Below, one piece after another: positions 5,119-13,512 of a DNA stretch of 32,569 nt. This stretch comes from Halomonas sp. (GTDB lineage: Bacteria; Pseudomonadota; Gammaproteobacteria; Pseudomonadales; Halomonadaceae): contig NZ_JAFWFN010000079.1 of assembly GCF_017515565.1 (NCBI RefSeq), positions 1-32,569 on the forward strand. The letters run 5' to 3'. Position numbers and translations under genes: made by a program. Each line of letters starts with the position of its first letter. Position 1 is the first letter of the stretch. Under the pieces are notes generated by a model. It ran no database searches, was not told where the DNA came from, and saw nothing but the letters and a program-made list of their open reading frames with translations.

Positions 5119-6153
5119 TTACTTTGTTGGCTCGTCGCTCTCTTGAACCTTAGGGGCCAGCGTTTCTGGCAGGGCGGTTAGCTGTGCCTGCAAGGCCTCC
5201 ATACGCTGCCAAAGCTGTTGCTGCCACTCATCATCCTGAACGGTTTGCTGCTGCTGTCGTGTTAACGCCAAGTGGGCTTTATCTATTTCGCCCTGCAGCT
5301 TGGTGCACTGCTCTTCACGTGCTGCATTGTCACGCTCCAGCTCAGCAATACGCTGTTGCTGAGTGCTGTTCTCTAACTGGTGCTGCTGCAATGCGGCATT
5401 TTTGATCTGCAGTTCTTTGTCTAGGGTATTAGCCCGCTGCTCCCAGTGCTGTAAGCGCTTTTGTAGCGCCTTCTCTTCTTGGGCACGCTCCTGTCTTAAC
5501 GTATCCAGTAACGCCATTAATTTCCCTTCCGCGGCCTCATTGCGCTGCTCTTCCTGTGCCAGTCGCTCTTGCCAAGTGGCCTGCTGTTTTTGTTGCTCAT
5601 CGGCAAAATGCGTCTTAAGTACGGCAAGGTCTTGCTCTGCCTCGGCATGCTGCTGTCGATACTCCTCTGCTTGTTGGCCGGCTTTTTCTGCCTGTAGCTG
5701 CCACTGGTTCTCATTTGTTTGGCTTGCGGCTAATTCTCGATTCACGGCTTCTAGCCGCTGTTCGGTGTGGCGAAGATGTTCGGCTAGGGCGCTTTCCCGT
5801 TGTTCGGCGTTGGCGGCGTGTTGTGCTGCTTCTGCTGCCTGCTTTTGAGCAGTCTCTACCTGGCGGTTAGCCTCTTCACGATAGTGGGCAAGGGCTTGGT
5901 TGGCGACATTTTGTGCTTCTAGCCATAGCTCGCTTGCCACACTCACTACTACTTCTGGCACGCCTTTGGGAGGCGGTACATCGCGATTTTGCTCTCGCTC
6001 AATACGCCATAGCCGGAAGTGCTCACTAATTGTCGTGAAACTGCCGGTACCCAATACCTCACGAATACGCTGAACGCTAGGCGCATCGCCACGGGCAAGC
6101 AGCGTATCAATCGCTTGCTGAACGTCACTGTATTGAATGCCACTGCGCGCCAT
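5119..6153 (-). CDS. KfrA/TnpT-like DNA-binding coiled-coil protein
   Basis: The N-terminal segment (about 1-60; MARSGIQYSDVQQAIDTLL, then VQRIREVLGTGSFTTISEHF) is a KfrA-type helix-turn-helix DNA-binding domain. From about residue 90 to 335 the protein is a long, Gln/Glu/Ala-rich heptad-like sequence, a strong coiled-coil prediction. KfrA proteins are known as plasmid autorepressors that bind operators next to their own gene. TnpT, the accessory factor for Tn4651-type cointegrate resolution, has a similar plan as I recall it. The start at 6153 is preferred because the recognisable domain begins there; an upstream in-frame start at 6228 would fall inside the palindrome at 6212-6241. It is transcribed divergently from a tyrosine recombinase, suggesting it is that enzyme's accessory DNA-binding partner. 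No plasmid genes lie nearby. The domain call is firm; the role is inference. Confidence 0.8.
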   Translation of the reverse strand: MARSGIQYSDVQQAIDTLLARGDAPSVQRIREVLGTGSFTTISEHFRLWRIEREQNRDVPPPKGVPEVVVSVASELWLEAQNVANQALAHYREEANRQVETAQKQAAEAAQHAANAEQRESALAEHLRHTEQRLEAVNRELAASQTNENQWQLQAEKAGQQAEEYRQQHAEAEQDLAVLKTHFADEQQKQQATWQERLAQEEQRNEAAEGKLMALLDTLRQERAQEEKALQKRLQHWEQRANTLDKELQIKNAALQQHQLENSTQQQRIAELERDNAAREEQCTKLQGEIDKAHLALTRQQQQTVQDDEWQQQLWQRMEALQAQLTALPETLAPKVQESDEPTK

Positions 6154-6211
6154 GATGTTTATCTCGATTAAAAGGAAAACGTTATTCTCACCGGGATTGG
6201 TTAAAACTTCA

Positions 6212-6241
6212 ATTATTACGTAATACATAATACGTAATAAT
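6212..6241. promoter_or_regulatory. Perfect 11-bp inverted repeat, likely operator
   Basis: ATTATTACGTA (6212-6222) and its exact reverse complement TACGTAATAAT (6231-6241) are separated by 8 bases. Inside them the 9-mer TACGTAATA occurs twice as a direct repeat (6217-6225 and 6231-6239, a 14-base offset), and 6215-6224 is itself palindromic. It lies about 60 bases upstream of the KfrA-like gene, where an autoregulatory operator would be expected. Its role in binding is inferred. Confidence 0.65.
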
Positions 6242-6256
6242 ATTTATGTTAATTGG

Positions 6257-6294
6257 TATAAATTCAAGATTACCCGTCTTATCTTGAATTTATA
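6257..6294. repeat. Perfect 14-bp inverted repeat with 10-bp spacer; candidate recombination core site
   Basis: TATAAATTCAAGAT (6257-6270) and ATCTTGAATTTATA (6281-6294) are exact reverse complements around the spacer TACCCGTCTT. The site lies between the divergent KfrA-like and recombinase genes, 70 bases before the recombinase start. Two inverted arms around a short asymmetric spacer is the form of a tyrosine recombinase core site, although the 10-base spacer is longer than the usual 6-8. No T run follows, so a terminator is unlikely. An operator is the main alternative. Confidence 0.6.
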
Positions 6295-6364
6295 TACGCG
6301 TAAGCCCACACTTAACTCATTGAATATCCATCTGATCGCTATGAAGGCTGATAAGGACGTAAAC

Positions 6365-7531
6365 ATGCCCCACCGTGTGGCCACCTCATTGCCACCCAAA
6401 GAAAAAGGTGTGCAAAACCAGCGATTACCTTTAATCAGTCAGCTAGGGCGCATAGATGCGCAAAGTGACGCTGAAGCGGTGGCTGCCTGGCTTGCGGAGT
6501 ATCACGACAGCCCGCAAACTTGGAAATGCTACCGACGAGAAGCGGAGCGGCTGCTGCTATGGCTAGGAAGTCACCATCAACAGCTGCGAGATATAAATCG
6601 CGAAACGCTGCGCCAATTTGAGCTGTTTCTTGAAAATCCGCAGCCTGCTGCCCAGTGGGTAGGGCCAGCGAAGCCACGACATCACCCGCAATGGCGGCCC
6701 TTTCGAGGCGGGCTTTCTCCGGCGAGCCGCCGTCAAAGCCTAGTCATTTTGCAGGGAATGTTTAGCTGGCTAGTCGAAGCGGGGTGGGTGACGCATAACC
6801 CGTTTGTGTTAATGCGTGATAAGTCACGGCGGCTCAACAACCAAACCCAGCGAATTGAGCGCTATCTAGAGCGTGAGTTATGGGAGTGGCTATGGGGGTG
6901 GATCAATGCGCCCACAGAGCAGCAAAGTGAGCGCGCACGTTATGAATATGCCCGCCGTCGCTTTATATTTAGTTTTGCTTACCTGCTGGCACCACGTATT
7001 AGCGAAATGTCGGGTGCGCAAATGGGCGATTTTCAACAAAGCGAAGGGCGCTGGTGGTGGGTGGTCGTAGGTAAAGGCAATAAAGTAGCGCGTATCCCAT
7101 TGCCTAGTGACATGCTCGATTGTTTGCGCGAGTGGCGAGAAGCGCTTGGCCTGGATGGTCTGCCGGGGCACCATGACGCAACGTCGGTAATTCGTGCGTT
7201 AGATAAGCGTCGCGGTATTAGCGATAACCAGCTCTACCGGCTGATACGCAAAACATTTTTCGATGCAGCCAATGCATTAGAGGAGCAGGGCGGTAAGCCT
7301 GCCCATATCAGCACTCTTCGCCAAGCAACCCCCCATTGGCTACGCCATACATCAATCACCCACCAAGCTCAATCCGGCATTAGCCTTCGCTACTTAGCAG
7401 AAAGCGCCCGCCACGCACGAATAGAAACCACCACGCGCTACCTCCATAGCGAAGAGGCAGAGTGGCATCAAGAACAGCAGCGACACCGTTTAGGGGAAAC
7501 GACCCCAAAAGTGCGTAATGAACCGTTATAA
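6365..7531 (+). CDS. Tyrosine recombinase (TnpS/XerD-like site-specific integrase)
   Basis: This enzyme would cut and rejoin DNA at a specific site through a covalent phosphotyrosine intermediate. With the start at 6365 it has 388 residues: an N-terminal core-binding domain (about 25-155) and a catalytic domain (about 165-365). All catalytic positions are visible: Arg211 (LLAPRISEM), Lys237 or Lys240 (GKGNK), His324 and Arg327 (HWLRHTS), His350 (SARHARIETT) and the nucleophile Tyr359 (TTRYLH). It therefore looks active. The start at 6365 follows an AAGGA at a 7-base spacing. Upstream in-frame starts at 6341 (ATG) and 6284 (TTG, inside an inverted repeat) have no ribosome site. It pairs divergently with the KfrA-like gene. 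No attachment site, transposase or other phage gene accompanies it. Family certain; substrate site unknown. Confidence 0.9.
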   Translation: MPHRVATSLPPKEKGVQNQRLPLISQLGRIDAQSDAEAVAAWLAEYHDSPQTWKCYRREAERLLLWLGSHHQQLRDINRETLRQFELFLENPQPAAQWVGPAKPRHHPQWRPFRGGLSPASRRQSLVILQGMFSWLVEAGWVTHNPFVLMRDKSRRLNNQTQRIERYLERELWEWLWGWINAPTEQQSERARYEYARRRFIFSFAYLLAPRISEMSGAQMGDFQQSEGRWWWVVVGKGNKVARIPLPSDMLDCLREWREALGLDGLPGHHDATSVIRALDKRRGISDNQLYRLIRKTFFDAANALEEQGGKPAHISTLRQATPHWLRHTSITHQAQSGISLRYLAESARHARIETTTRYLHSEEAEWHQEQQRHRLGETTPKVRNEPL

Positions 7532-8033: not shown

Positions 8034-8366
8034 TTAGTGGCGATGGTTGCATTTGGCGTGGGGAGGGGCTGTTGAACTGTCATCTTCTTGGCAAAGTTGT
8101 TCGCTTCTACCGCCAGGCACAGGATCCATACCGCCAGGGTTACCGGGGTGGCACTTCACGATACGTTTAGCTGCCATCCAGGCTCCTTTAAAGGGGCCAT
8201 GCACTTGAATGGCTTCAATAGTGTAAGACGAACAGCTTGGCCAAAACCGGCAGCGTGGGCCAAGTAGGGGGCTGATGGTGTATTGGTAGACCTTTACTAA
8301 GCCTACCATGACTCCTCCCATTAACGTCACCAAGCCATGGCTCAGCGCAGTAAAGAACCGGCGCAT
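8034..8366 (-). CDS. yidD: Membrane protein insertion efficiency factor YidD
   Basis: YidD is a small protein of the inner face of the cytoplasmic membrane that aids YidC-dependent insertion. The 110-residue product carries the family signature: a hydrophobic N-terminal segment, then [20 protein letters not shown] with paired cysteines, [18 protein letters not shown] and [14 protein letters not shown]. The C-terminal tail (about 85-110) is poorly conserved. The gene normally sits in the rpmH-rnpA-yidD-yidC cluster; here it is the last gene of a zur-hisI-yidD unit, its ATG overlapping the hisI stop as TAATG. Whether another yidD copy exists at the usual locus cannot be seen. Confidence 0.93.
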
Positions 8367-9312: not shown

Positions 9313-10311
9313 CTACGCGCTAGCCGGAGCGCTGTCAGGGCTTTCAACCAGCTCGCTTTGTCGGGCAAAATGATGTTGAGCAAACGCTACTCGCTCTTCA
9401 ACTGAGACCCCATCTGGCTGACGCTCAATCAGGTCAAGGCGTCGGCGTAATCCTTCACCATTCGTCATTTGGATGGCTAAGCCGGGGCGGGCATTGAGCT
9501 CCAGCAGCATGGGGCCATGTGCGCGATCAAGCACCATATCGGTTCCCAGATAGCCAAGCCCGGTCATTTCATAACAACCCGCCGCCAAATGGAGCAGCGT
9601 ATTCCACTGCGGCACCACCAGGCTCGCCAAATCGTGACCTGTATCAGGGTGGCTGAAACAAGGACGGTCAAACTGAACGCCCCGAATAGCTGAGCCGGTG
9701 GCGATGTTTAACCCTACGCCTACCGCCCCTTGGTGCAAATTAGCTTTACCGTCGGAAGCCGCAGTTGAGAGCCGCATCATGGCCATGACCGGATAGCCTT
9801 TAAAAACAATGACTCAAATATCAGGCACACCCTCGTAGGTGTAAGCCAGCAGACTCTCATCAAAGTTGATCAGCGTTTCGATGACCGCCACATCAGGTGA
9901 TCCACCCAGAGAGTAAAGCCCAGAAAGAATATTGGAGACGTGGCGTTCAATATCTTCAATCGACTGACGCATCCCGCTGGGTTTGATAAAAGCGTCGTCT
10001 TCGACTCTCTCGATTACCAGAATGCCTTTCCCGCCACTACCTTTGGCAGGTTTGATTACAAAGCCACTATGCCCTGTCAACATTTCGCCAATGTGCTTTA
10101 CGCCGAACTGGGTGGTTACTGTGCCAATGAGTTCTGGCGTGGTAATACCGTACTGTTGAGCAAGCAGTTTGGTTTTAAGCTTATCGTCCACCAGCGGATA
10201 TAGACGACGGGAGTTGTAGCGCCCGATGTAACGAATGTTACGCCGGTTCATCCCGATAATCCCTTTGTCTCGCAACCGAGTTGGCCATGTCCAATCTTTA
10301 AGCCAATTCAT
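9313..10311 (-). pseudogene. RimK-like ATP-grasp ligase (alpha-L-glutamate ligase-related), interrupted by one in-frame TGA
   Basis: Both halves belong to one 333-codon frame. Codons 1-165 give the N-terminal ATP-grasp part, with RLYPLVDDKLKTKLL, HSGFVIKPAKGSGGKGILVIE and ILSGLYSLGGSPDVAVIE. Codon 166 (9814-9816) is TGA. Reading continues in the same frame with VIVFKGYPVMAMMRL, GKANLHQGAVGVG, and the metal-site region GYLGTDMVLDR and LLELNARPGL. In family members as I recall them the junction reads YEGVPDIR followed by a hydrophobic VIV-like stretch, so TGA stands for an Arg codon, most simply CGA to TGA. No frameshift or deletion is needed. The start overlaps the preceding stop as ATGA. An internal ATG at 9786 could restart the second half. 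The intact enzyme would be cytoplasmic and attach an amino acid to an unknown acceptor. Confidence 0.88.
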
Positions 10312-11870: not shown

Positions 11871-12707
11871 TTACTCTTCGGTATCGTCTTGATCAGCCGC
11901 TTCATCATCAGCAGCTTGCTCGGCTGGCTCACCGCCAGGAAACTCAGGTCGCTCATGAATATAGGTTTGAGCAACATCAATGGTGGCAATATCCATCATG
12001 AAACGCCGCCCCAGTAGCACTGGGTAGTCTAAATGCGTGCGGTTATTCAGGGTAAATTCAACGTTTTCACGGAGAGGGCCAAGCGTCATTAACAATGAAA
12101 TAACGGGACGAGACTCTTCGCCGGAAGCCTGAACAATACGCACCCTGCGTATAATAGGCGCTTCAATCCACTCATCACGAATACGTTCGACAACAACATC
12201 TTCTTCGTTTAGCGCAAGCTTAAAGCGCACCCAGTTTTCACCGTCTCGCTCAAAGCGAGTGATATTAGAGGCGGAAAGCGACGACGTATGAGCGCCGGAG
12301 TCGACCCGTGCTTTCAAATAGGTGCCAATACTGGGTAACCCTACCCACTCATTACGGCCCAGCATGGTCTTGGTATCTTCAATACTCGCCGCTTCGCACT
12401 CTTCACGAATAATGATGGGCTCTTCGCCTCGAGCTTCTAAGTTCGCGATATCGTCGCGCAAAAAGCGGAGCAGGCTGCCTACTTCTCGTACATCGGCTGT
12501 AAGCACCTGCTGCTGATTAAGCTGACGCTCTTGCAGCGAGGATGTTGCACTACACTGCTGTGAAAAGGCATTTTCTAGCTCAAGGATGCGGGTATTGAAT
12601 GAGGCTTCGCTCAGCGGTGGTGGTTCATTAGTATCTGGCTGGGTGGCGGCACAGCCTGCAAACGTAAGCGACAAACCAGCCAACAGCCACAAAACACCTG
12701 GGCGCAT
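11871..12707 (-). CDS. Retropepsin-like (putative ATP-dependent zinc protease family) lipoprotein
   Basis: The 278-residue protein starts with a lipoprotein signal peptide (lipobox TFAGC, Cys19), so it is probably anchored in the envelope. A short helical region (about 35-95) is followed by the family core (about 113-255): VGLPSIGTYLKARVDSGAHTS carries the Asp-Ser-Gly-Ala aspartyl protease-like motif (Asp136), and YPVLLGRRFMMD is the second conserved motif. Databases have called the family 'ATP-dependent zinc protease', but the fold is retropepsin-like. The tail (about 258-278) is very acidic, as expected for a halophile. It is the first gene of the trio and its promoter must lie in the stretch containing dif. 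Proteolytic activity and substrate are not known. Confidence 0.85.
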   Translation of the reverse strand: MRPGVLWLLAGLSLTFAGCAATQPDTNEPPPLSEASFNTRILELENAFSQQCSATSSLQERQLNQQQVLTADVREVGSLLRFLRDDIANLEARGEEPIIIREECEAASIEDTKTMLGRNEWVGLPSIGTYLKARVDSGAHTSSLSASNITRFERDGENWVRFKLALNEEDVVVERIRDEWIEAPIIRRVRIVQASGEESRPVISLLMTLGPLRENVEFTLNNRTHLDYPVLLGRRFMMDIATIDVAQTYIHERPEFPGGEPAEQAADDEAADQDDTEE

Positions 12708-12805: not shown

Positions 12806-12833
12806 ATTTAACATAATATATATTATGCGAACC
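12806..12833 (-). other. dif site: XerCD chromosome dimer resolution site
   Basis: Read on the minus strand the 28 bases split into a left arm GGTTCGCATAA, a 6-base centre TATATA and a right arm TTATGTTAAAT. The E. coli dif is GGTGCGCATAA, TGTATA, TTATGTTAAAT. The XerD arm is therefore identical, the XerC arm matches at 10 of 11 positions and the centre at 5 of 6: 26 of 28 in all. It lies in the gap between divergent genes, as dif commonly does. XerC and XerD act here with FtsK to resolve chromosome dimers at division. The comparison rests on my memory of the E. coli sequence. Confidence 0.93.
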
Positions 12834-12930: not shown

Positions 12931-13512
12931 ATGAAACGTAGAACATGGCTGTCTCTCTTGGCTTCTCTTTTCCTCCTTGCAGGCTGTGCAAGCGTGGATG
13001 TTGAGGACTACGCAGGTACTACACCGCATTTTGATATCGCCGAGTACTTTACAGGCACCACCCGCGCTTGGGGTATGGTACAGGACTACTCAGGTGAAGT
13101 TCAGCGTCGTTTTACTGTCGATATCACTGGGACCTTTGAAGATGACACCCTAACCCTTGATGAGACTTTTCTATTTGACGATGGTGAAACCGATCAGCGC
13201 ATTTGGGTATTTGAGCGCACTGGCCCACATCACTGGCTAGGCACTGCCAACGATGTAGATGGCGAGGTAGAAGCTCGTCAGTATGGTCACGCCTTTAATA
13301 TGCGCTACCCCTTGGTTATCGACGTTGGCGGCCGCAGCATCCGCTTTACTATGAATGATTGGATGTATTTACAGCCAGATAACCGAGTGATTAATCGCAC
13401 AGCAATGCGCAAATTTGGCCTCACCTTGGGGGAAATCACCTTAGTTTTTGAAAAGGTAGATGTTGAACCCAATGCCGATGAACGCTTGGCCACCAAAGAG
13501 GCTAATGGTTAG
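12931..13512 (+). CDS. DUF3833 family lipoprotein
   Basis: The 193-residue product begins with a lipoprotein signal peptide (LLASLFLLAGC, Cys19). The mature part matches the DUF3833 pattern: FDIAEYFTGTTRAWGMVQDYSG near the start, RRFTVDITGT, a TLDETFLFDDGETDQRIW segment, and close to the end NDWMYLQPDNRVINRTAM and KFGLTLGEITLVF. It would be a membrane-anchored beta-rich protein of unknown function. A good AGGAAA ribosome site lies 5 bases before the ATG. It is alone on its strand, 98 bases from dif, and ends in a terminator shared with ectC. No link to ectoine is implied by the sequence. Confidence 0.85.
   Translation: MKRRTWLSLLASLFLLAGCASVDVEDYAGTTPHFDIAEYFTGTTRAWGMVQDYSGEVQRRFTVDITGTFEDDTLTLDETFLFDDGETDQRIWVFERTGPHHWLGTANDVDGEVEARQYGHAFNMRYPLVIDVGGRSIRFTMNDWMYLQPDNRVINRTAMRKFGLTLGEITLVFEKVDVEPNADERLATKEANG

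Follow-up and report, generated by a model that had tools for sequence, protein, structure and literature searches.

Introduction

The closest described system to the second module reported here is XerL, which the accessible text of PMC9765430 presents as the single recombinase of the Legionellales, with Tyr387 as the catalytic residue in L. pneumophila and with a symmetric dif. According to the same text XerL is restricted to Legionellales, the order within which the authors' search lay, gene and dif are more than 400 kb apart in L. pneumophila, and the genes of the XerH/difH and XerS/difSL systems are near their own dif. How dimers are resolved without XerCD/dif in large-genome gammaproteobacteria such as Saccharophagus and Colwellia was left open, as far as the accessible text goes, by Carnoy and Roten (2009; PMC2731167), a question to which XerL gave the answer for the Legionellales in 2022. 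In published full text, other than subscription papers and preprints, neither XerL beyond Legionellales nor the second site described below was found to be mentioned.

The window analyzed here, that is the whole stretch of 32,569 nucleotides from Halomonas sp., corresponds to the whole of contig 13 of the source draft genome. Our explanation, which we hold with good confidence, is that it carries a canonical dif at 12806-12833 plus a second Xer-type module (recombinase, palindrome and KfrA-like protein) that probably serves plasmids, with XerL apparently replacing XerCD elsewhere. Gene roles taken from Pfam names and the polarity rules of KOPS are used throughout as general knowledge.

A canonical dif site near the replication terminus

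The first-pass annotation had proposed a dif site of 11-6-11 layout sharing 26 of 28 letters with that of E. coli, and this was confirmed by the minus-strand letters of the interval, GGTTCGCATAA-TATATA-TTATGTTAAAT.

12806..12833, minus strand: canonical dif, 28 bp, by sequence, single copy and position in the closed genome G013
12806-12816: XerD-type arm of dif
12817-12822: centre of dif
12823-12833: XerC-type arm of dif

Compared with the sequence that we take to be the E. coli dif, with which 26 of the 28 letters are common, the XerD arm TTATGTTAAAT is identical and there is one change in the XerC arm and one in the centre. The surrounding divergent intergenic gap was also as annotated, the flanks being a Zn-protease gene (11871-12707, minus strand) and a DUF3833 gene (12931-13512, plus strand). 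Allowing up to 3 mismatches, dif is matched once in the window and never in 100 dinucleotide shuffles. The site had been expected to be unique, and it is: the match is single at the same tolerance in the source draft genome (3.755 Mb, 86 contigs, 97.6% complete), and a degenerate pattern (up to 2 mismatches) found exactly one dif in each of the 37 same-genus genomes and gave matches in 51 of 58 genomes, source genome included. Genes for XerD (357.7 bits, which exceeds the family cut-off), for a second protein that was taken as XerC (242.8 bits on the XerD model) and for FtsK_gamma (95.2 bits) are also present in the source genome. Judged by sequence, 12806-12833 is the canonical XerCD dif of the chromosome and an ordinary member of the E. 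coli-type class, which it resembles in the 11-6-11 layout, the single copy, the XerD, XerC-type and FtsK-gamma genes of its genome, and the terminus position and KOPS polarity seen in a colinear relative; it differs from that class in nothing of note.

Since the contigs of the fragmented source genome cannot be ordered, the terminus was checked in G013, a closed same-genus genome of 3,849,224 bp that is colinear with the window and of which 400 kb around dif were read. Here dif lies at 1,896,837, 49% of the way along the record. The 200 kb that precede dif contain 16 KOPS on the plus strand and 0 on the minus strand, and the 200 kb that follow it 3 and 23, respectively. The GC skew is positive before dif, about zero over the next 20 kb and then negative, and the cumulative maximum of the 400-kb stretch is at 1,913,138. 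The check that had been suggested, on copy number and skew extremum, thus turned out favorably in this closed genome, with one dif located 16 kb from the skew maximum and at the KOPS strand switch, which supports the terminus location of the window through its colinear relative. Nearly all ORFs of the window have their counterparts in G013 with their order kept, the cytochrome c' ORF giving no match, so that the terminus-proximal position claimed for tol-pal, ectABC and the recombinase applies to that genome as well.

Four GGGNAGGG octamers lie in the window where the annotation had named them (plus strand at 6657 and 8060, minus strand at 457 and 12339), and we agree that they are neutral evidence: KOPS inside the window say little because 3.3 octamers are expected by chance. 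Three of them are as follows.

6657..6664, plus strand: KOPS-type octamer, points to dif
8060..8067, plus strand: KOPS-type octamer, points to dif
12339..12346, minus strand: KOPS-type octamer, points away from dif

The GC skew along the window shows no turning point at dif.

A recombinase module with its own palindrome

At a distance of 6.5 kb from dif the window carries a recombinase gene, with the following features around it.

5119..6228, minus strand: KfrA_N DNA-binding protein (Pfam), divergent from the recombinase
6212..6241, no strand: further conserved palindrome, spans the kfrA start
6262..6289, plus strand: palindrome ATTCAAGATTA-CCCGTC-TTATCTTGAAT, 11-6-11, proposed recombinase target
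6284..7531, plus strand: XerL-like tyrosine recombinase (Pfam, family profile, tree)

The recombinase ORF comprises 415 aa from TTG 6284, a start that overlaps the palindrome; ATG 6365 would be the more plausible start, and the palindrome sits 75 bp before this likely start codon. The catalytic residues are all present (intact R-K-HxxR-H-Y), and the ORF scores below every NCBIfam Xer cut-off, the best being XerC with 65 of 335 bits. The gene was found in 37 of 37 genus genomes (E <= 1.6e-150, 65-100% identical), at 5.1-5.4 kb from dif in 33 of them, at 11.2 kb in two (G006, G012), at 32.7 kb in one (G009), and on a contig separate from that of dif in G016. A dN/dS of about 0.06 versus G001 and G023 shows that it is under purifying selection. 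In the order sample it is present in six of seven genomes of other Halomonadaceae genera, and it is dispensable, because the remaining one, G152, has none.

A first site matrix gave no match in the window or in Halomonas-type loci, and the site there came instead from an alignment of the upstream region in 11 genus genomes, in which ATTCAAGATTA-N6-TTATCTTGAAT is conserved before the recombinase; the 11-mer TTCTGGAAAAA, common to some gene flanks, was dropped as not site-like. With up to 3 mismatches, this second site lies beside the recombinase in all 37 genus genomes (reversed control, 0), which show 16 forms of the centre, and outside the genus a single 3-mismatch match was found in one of 21 genomes. 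The order kfrA-site-recombinase-dif is kept in four of four loci of other Halomonadaceae genera, where the site has 0-3 mismatches. Most likely the recombinase acts at the palindrome 6262-6289, and the annotated recombinase module has the appearance of a second system of the Xer type that possesses a site of its own.

The KfrA_N gene adjoins the recombinase in nine other genus loci and in the four other Halomonadaceae loci searched, and the palindrome at 6212-6241 is perhaps the KfrA operator. KfrA as a general partner of the family was rejected, with no match in 10 other-family loci and one weak local match (G269) among eight more. A ParB-domain protein is encoded in G051 (L125, 9239-11044), divergent from one of that genome's two XerL-type genes.

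Relation to XerL and other single-recombinase systems

A family profile was made from alignment A1, which holds the window protein and distant relatives in 11 rows, L134 (G009) having been left out because of an in-frame stop. This profile, which includes the recombinase itself, gave the recombinase 485 bits, against 31.7 bits for the source XerD, 38.2 bits for the XerC-type protein and at most 63.7 bits for other host proteins (XerC, XerD, integrases). In a midpoint-rooted tree of 72 rows, with long branches flagged (chiefly f8 and integrases), a XerL superclade (97/88) stands apart from XerC/XerD and two host integrases, and contains a Halomonadaceae clade (100/99) beside a clade with the Legionella genes (99/97). 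The window recombinase is closer to XerL than to XerC, XerD and the host integrases, and falls in the sister clade, outside the one with the Legionella genes; by sequence we regard it as XerL-like and a sister of Legionellales XerL, not as XerL itself. Identity between XerL and the recombinases of Halomonadaceae is only about 28%, and the window recombinase is not the only Xer system of its chromosome, XerCD-type genes and dif being present.

Likenesses to XerL/dif, as far as the accessible text of PMC9765430 describes it, are the length of about 400 aa, the same supported superclade, the inverted-repeat arms, the position near the terminus, the catalytic Tyr (residue 386 in the window ORF against 387 as reported for XerL of L. 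pneumophila) and the site copies on plasmids, reported for Coxiella. The window differs in having XerCD and a canonical dif alongside, another arm sequence and a KfrA-like neighbor. With XerH/difH and XerS/difSL it has in common one recombinase linked to its own site; in contrast, the match between PDB XerH and the window protein reaches no better than E 0.008 and ranks behind XerD and XerA entries.

A scan of named genomes with A1 gave at least 533 relatives among at least 565 pattern matches, and the best 80 were used. Among these best 80 of at least 533 were genes from Legionella, Rickettsiella, Pseudomaricurvus, Marinomonas, Thalassolituus, Oceanobacter, Microbulbifer and Natronospirillum, and with the last five, among others, close relatives appear in taxa beyond Legionellales. 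The Legionella genes of the scan are presumably XerL, as judged by family and by the position of the Tyr (388 in L. tucsonensis) and not via lpg1867.

Copies of the second site on plasmids

Extra copies of the second site were found in eight of the 37 genus genomes. Two copies are present in G012, on an 11.2-kb contig with Rep3, a relaxase and a terminal repeat, and two in G019 (one with 3 mismatches), on a 9.0-kb contig with Rep3 and a terminal repeat; the copy of G020 is on a 7.6-kb contig with Rep3 and a terminal repeat, and that of G002 on a 4.4-kb contig with MobA/MobL, where KfrA_N adjoins the site. The copies of G004, G014 and G016 are on unclassified contigs of 39, 19.6 and 19.5 kb, that of G014 with KfrA_N. 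The plasmid call is not established for the contigs in four of these eight genomes, and Pfam was applied to 10 ORFs from five of the eight contigs. In G030 the extra copy (contig 17, 17916) lies on a 403-kb contig that is probably chromosomal.

A 32-letter query against 72,556 plasmid records matched H. qaidamensis plasmid NZ_CP080628 (E 0.7) and the Halomonas plasmid pHAL40 (E 9), both non-significant, as well as three other records, and the arms were then read directly. On NZ_CP080628 the arms of the second site are perfect, with a ParA gene about 0.9 kb away, and on pHAL40 the site has 3 mismatches. Together with ectABC, the presence of the second site on plasmids of named Halomonas points to Halomonadaceae as the family of the window. 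At cer/psi-type plasmid multimer sites, small plasmids bear a copy of a Xer-type site that is served from the chromosome; the second site was likewise found on small plasmids of the same hosts, with the difference that the recombinase would be a XerL-like protein, not XerCD. Going by this likeness, the plasmid copies would be multimer-resolution sites served by the chromosomal recombinase, and it is also possible that they are integration sites.

The second-site core was present in 17 viral contigs, versus 1 and 7 for two rearranged palindromes, and the XerL core in 21, versus 6 for its mirror image; phage mimics of the sites were set aside, the signal being weak against these controls.

Apparent order-wide exchange of XerCD/dif for the XerL family

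The A1 profile was searched in an order sample of 245 genomes, each at least 90% complete. The search gave 88 strong carriers (at least 264 bits) and 12 weak ones (at most 175 bits), which were kept apart; the strong member of G086 is a fragment. XerC/XerD-type genes (E <= 1e-60) are present in 181 of the 245 genomes, counting G051 and G224, which are XerCD-bearing solely via matches that do not reach the family cut-off. A dif-like 24-mer, with up to 3 mismatches allowed, occurs in 165. A family member was found in 63 of the 64 XerCD-less genomes (59 strong, 4 weak), the sole one without being G140 (93% complete, dif present), and in 29 (strong) plus 8 (weak) of the 181 XerC/D-bearing genomes. 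The association between XerCD absence and a strong family member has a Fisher p of 1.5e-28 (strong versus rest), which is inflated by kinship because the genomes are not independent. Both states occur within genus g28, where five species (G094, G169, G208, G227, G245) carry XerCD plus dif and lack a family member, and four (G058, G145, G188, G264) have a family member without XerCD and dif. The XerL system appears to have taken the place of XerCD/dif completely in other families of the order, its function there being read by analogy with Legionella.

Outside Halomonadaceae, 19 genomes carry both XerCD and the XerL family. Their dif is on the contig of the gene in 13, on another contig in two (G210, G261) and absent from four (G051, G086, G190, G224). 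The gap between gene and dif is about 20-55 bp in G088, G124 and G164 (the family gene ends 41 bp from dif in G088 and 22 bp in G124), 0.6-1.4 kb in G143, G171, G225 and G269, 4-10 kb in G081, G186, G262 and G266, 18 kb in G072 and 94 kb in G156. This nearness fits two systems that would both work only near the terminus. Weakly related recombinases, in open frames of 373-384 aa, lie 2.5-3.7 kb from a canonical dif in family f8 (G161, G182, G202, G222, G277).

XerL-type sites outside Halomonadaceae

Palindromes of 11-6-11 layout, e.g., ATTTCCAATAC-TGGAGA-GTATCGGAAAT, were found in these families through words common to the gene flanks; that of G236 is uncertain and was left out of the counts. 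Among closed genomes without XerCD and dif, the nearest KOPS converge on the palindrome from both sides in G041, G252, G238, G258, G082 and G103, with two out-of-pattern octamers 26 kb away in G238 and a few farther out in G041. The distance from the palindrome to the skew maximum of the stretch read is at most 45 bp in G252 and about 1 kb in G103. A distance of 165-210 kb separates gene and site in genus g31 (G096, G123, G147), of which G096 is placed with Marinomonas in the tree, and the skew falls across each site, near which KOPS are too few to judge. KOPS around the sites of G205 are mixed, and G166 and G188 have one out-of-pattern octamer each near the site. Of 12 such records, which may begin at any point of the chromosome, nine have the site 47-53% of the way along; the exceptions are G147, G166 and G188.

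A covariance model built from 22 XerL-type sites was run on the 245 genomes, a test that is not independent throughout because four training sites stem from tested genomes and others maybe from the same species. At E <= 0.1 it found a site in 48 of the 59 XerCD-less strong carriers (and missed 11), in 15 of the 19 genomes outside Halomonadaceae with both systems, in 4 of 12 weak carriers, in 0 of 10 Halomonadaceae genomes and in 11 of 145 others, where about 14.5 are expected by chance. In the same classes and order the counts are 45, 9, 1, 0 and 4 at E <= 1e-3 and 32, 3, 0, 0 and 0 at E <= 1e-5. A few gene-less genomes do hold similar palindromes, because the 4 of 145 at E <= 1e-3 stand against about 0.1 expected. 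At the score used, the site motif occurs in 28 of the best 80 named loci, and no convincing motif was found in Legionella loci, save one Legionellaceae MAG (L251).

Two XerL-type palindromes with unlike centres lie 17.4 kb apart in G072 (L323, 1557 and 18942), one of them 0.3 kb from the canonical dif, and may mark an integrated element. Palindromes like XerL sites are also present without the gene in G097 and G148 (f28) and in G100, G126 and G173 (f34), with several per genome in G100 and G173; they would be a repeat family or relics.

Roles of the two systems

At dif, FtsK steered by converging KOPS would bring two dif copies together, and XerC and XerD would then exchange strands, leading to the resolution of chromosome dimers. 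The XerL-like recombinase would act alone at the palindrome 6262-6289, and in Halomonadaceae this second module would resolve multimers of site-bearing plasmids.

The palindrome 6262-6289 could instead be an operator for KfrA or for the recombinase and not a recombination site, as its position in the divergent kfrA/recombinase promoter region, with another conserved palindrome alongside, might suggest. We consider this unlikely: the site is downstream of kfrA on two plasmid-type contigs (L306, L310), no kfrA is annotated on pHAL40, the arrangement of two 11-bp arms with a variable 6-bp centre is that of Xer sites, and 11-6-11 palindromes occupy the same upstream position at related genes in other families. 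Furthermore, where gene and site are separate, the palindrome is found at or near the turn of KOPS or skew and not at the gene (G103 and G238; G096 and G123 by skew alone).

The retention of the recombinase in all 37 genus genomes under purifying selection, in 33 of them at the same distance from dif, makes it quite improbable that it came close to dif as the integrase of an old mobile island and has persisted there by chance or hitch-hiking. The Halomonadaceae genes also form one clade, and each genus genome has one dif, with no second copy as island border. Such an origin would nevertheless agree with the Pfam description of KfrA_N as a plasmid protein domain, with KfrA_N standing beside the site on two plasmid-type contigs, and with the way in which the family genes of G088 and G124 stop just short of dif (by 41 and 22 bp), as could be expected of an integrase gene.

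Of the 18 KOPS located between the second site and dif in eight genomes, 17 are directed at dif, namely all 15 in G005, G013, G017, G027, G029, G033 and G036 and two of three in the window, a direction that coding constraint may set because several of them lie inside the recombinase gene. With KOPS pointing to dif in the genus, FtsK should converge on dif, and the second module therefore probably no longer resolves chromosome dimers in Halomonadaceae. That this module, not XerCD/dif, is the working dimer-resolution system of the genus, as the same gene family seems to be on its own in other families of the order, is very improbable in view of these KOPS and of the XerD, XerC-type protein and dif of the source genome. 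The probability that the 28-mer resembles dif by mere chance is negligible, as nothing was found in favor of this reading and the 100 shuffles without a match, the single copy in each of 37 genus genomes, the matches in 51 of 58 relatives and the KOPS switch at dif in G013 all speak against it.

Extending the reading of a canonical dif beside a plasmid-serving module to the whole order, XerL would compete with XerCD/dif as a dimer-resolution system and would have ousted it repeatedly in the window's order, even among species of one genus, and Halomonadaceae would hold both systems at the terminus, with a XerL sister freed from chromosome duty and now serving site-bearing plasmids; our belief in this wider picture is evenly balanced. 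Outside the Legionellales, the same gene family in 63 of 64 XerCD-less genomes of another order, with a matching site by model in 48 of 59 strong carriers, may bear on the question of large-genome gammaproteobacteria such as Saccharophagus and Colwellia. With genomes that have both systems, and with species of either kind in one genus, it becomes possible to test directly how a core cell-cycle machine is replaced, and the plasmid copies of the second site point to a chromosomal recombinase shared with plasmids.

Two minor observations were made on the way. The ATP-grasp gene of the window (9313-10311, minus strand) is split by an in-frame TGA at 9814-9816, where the G013 homologue is intact. 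A second, less perfect dif-like site lies 13 kb from the first in G043 (contig 81), 4.5 kb in G156 (contig 5) and 64 bp in G133 (contig 8), and these extra sites are perhaps traces of dif-integrating elements.
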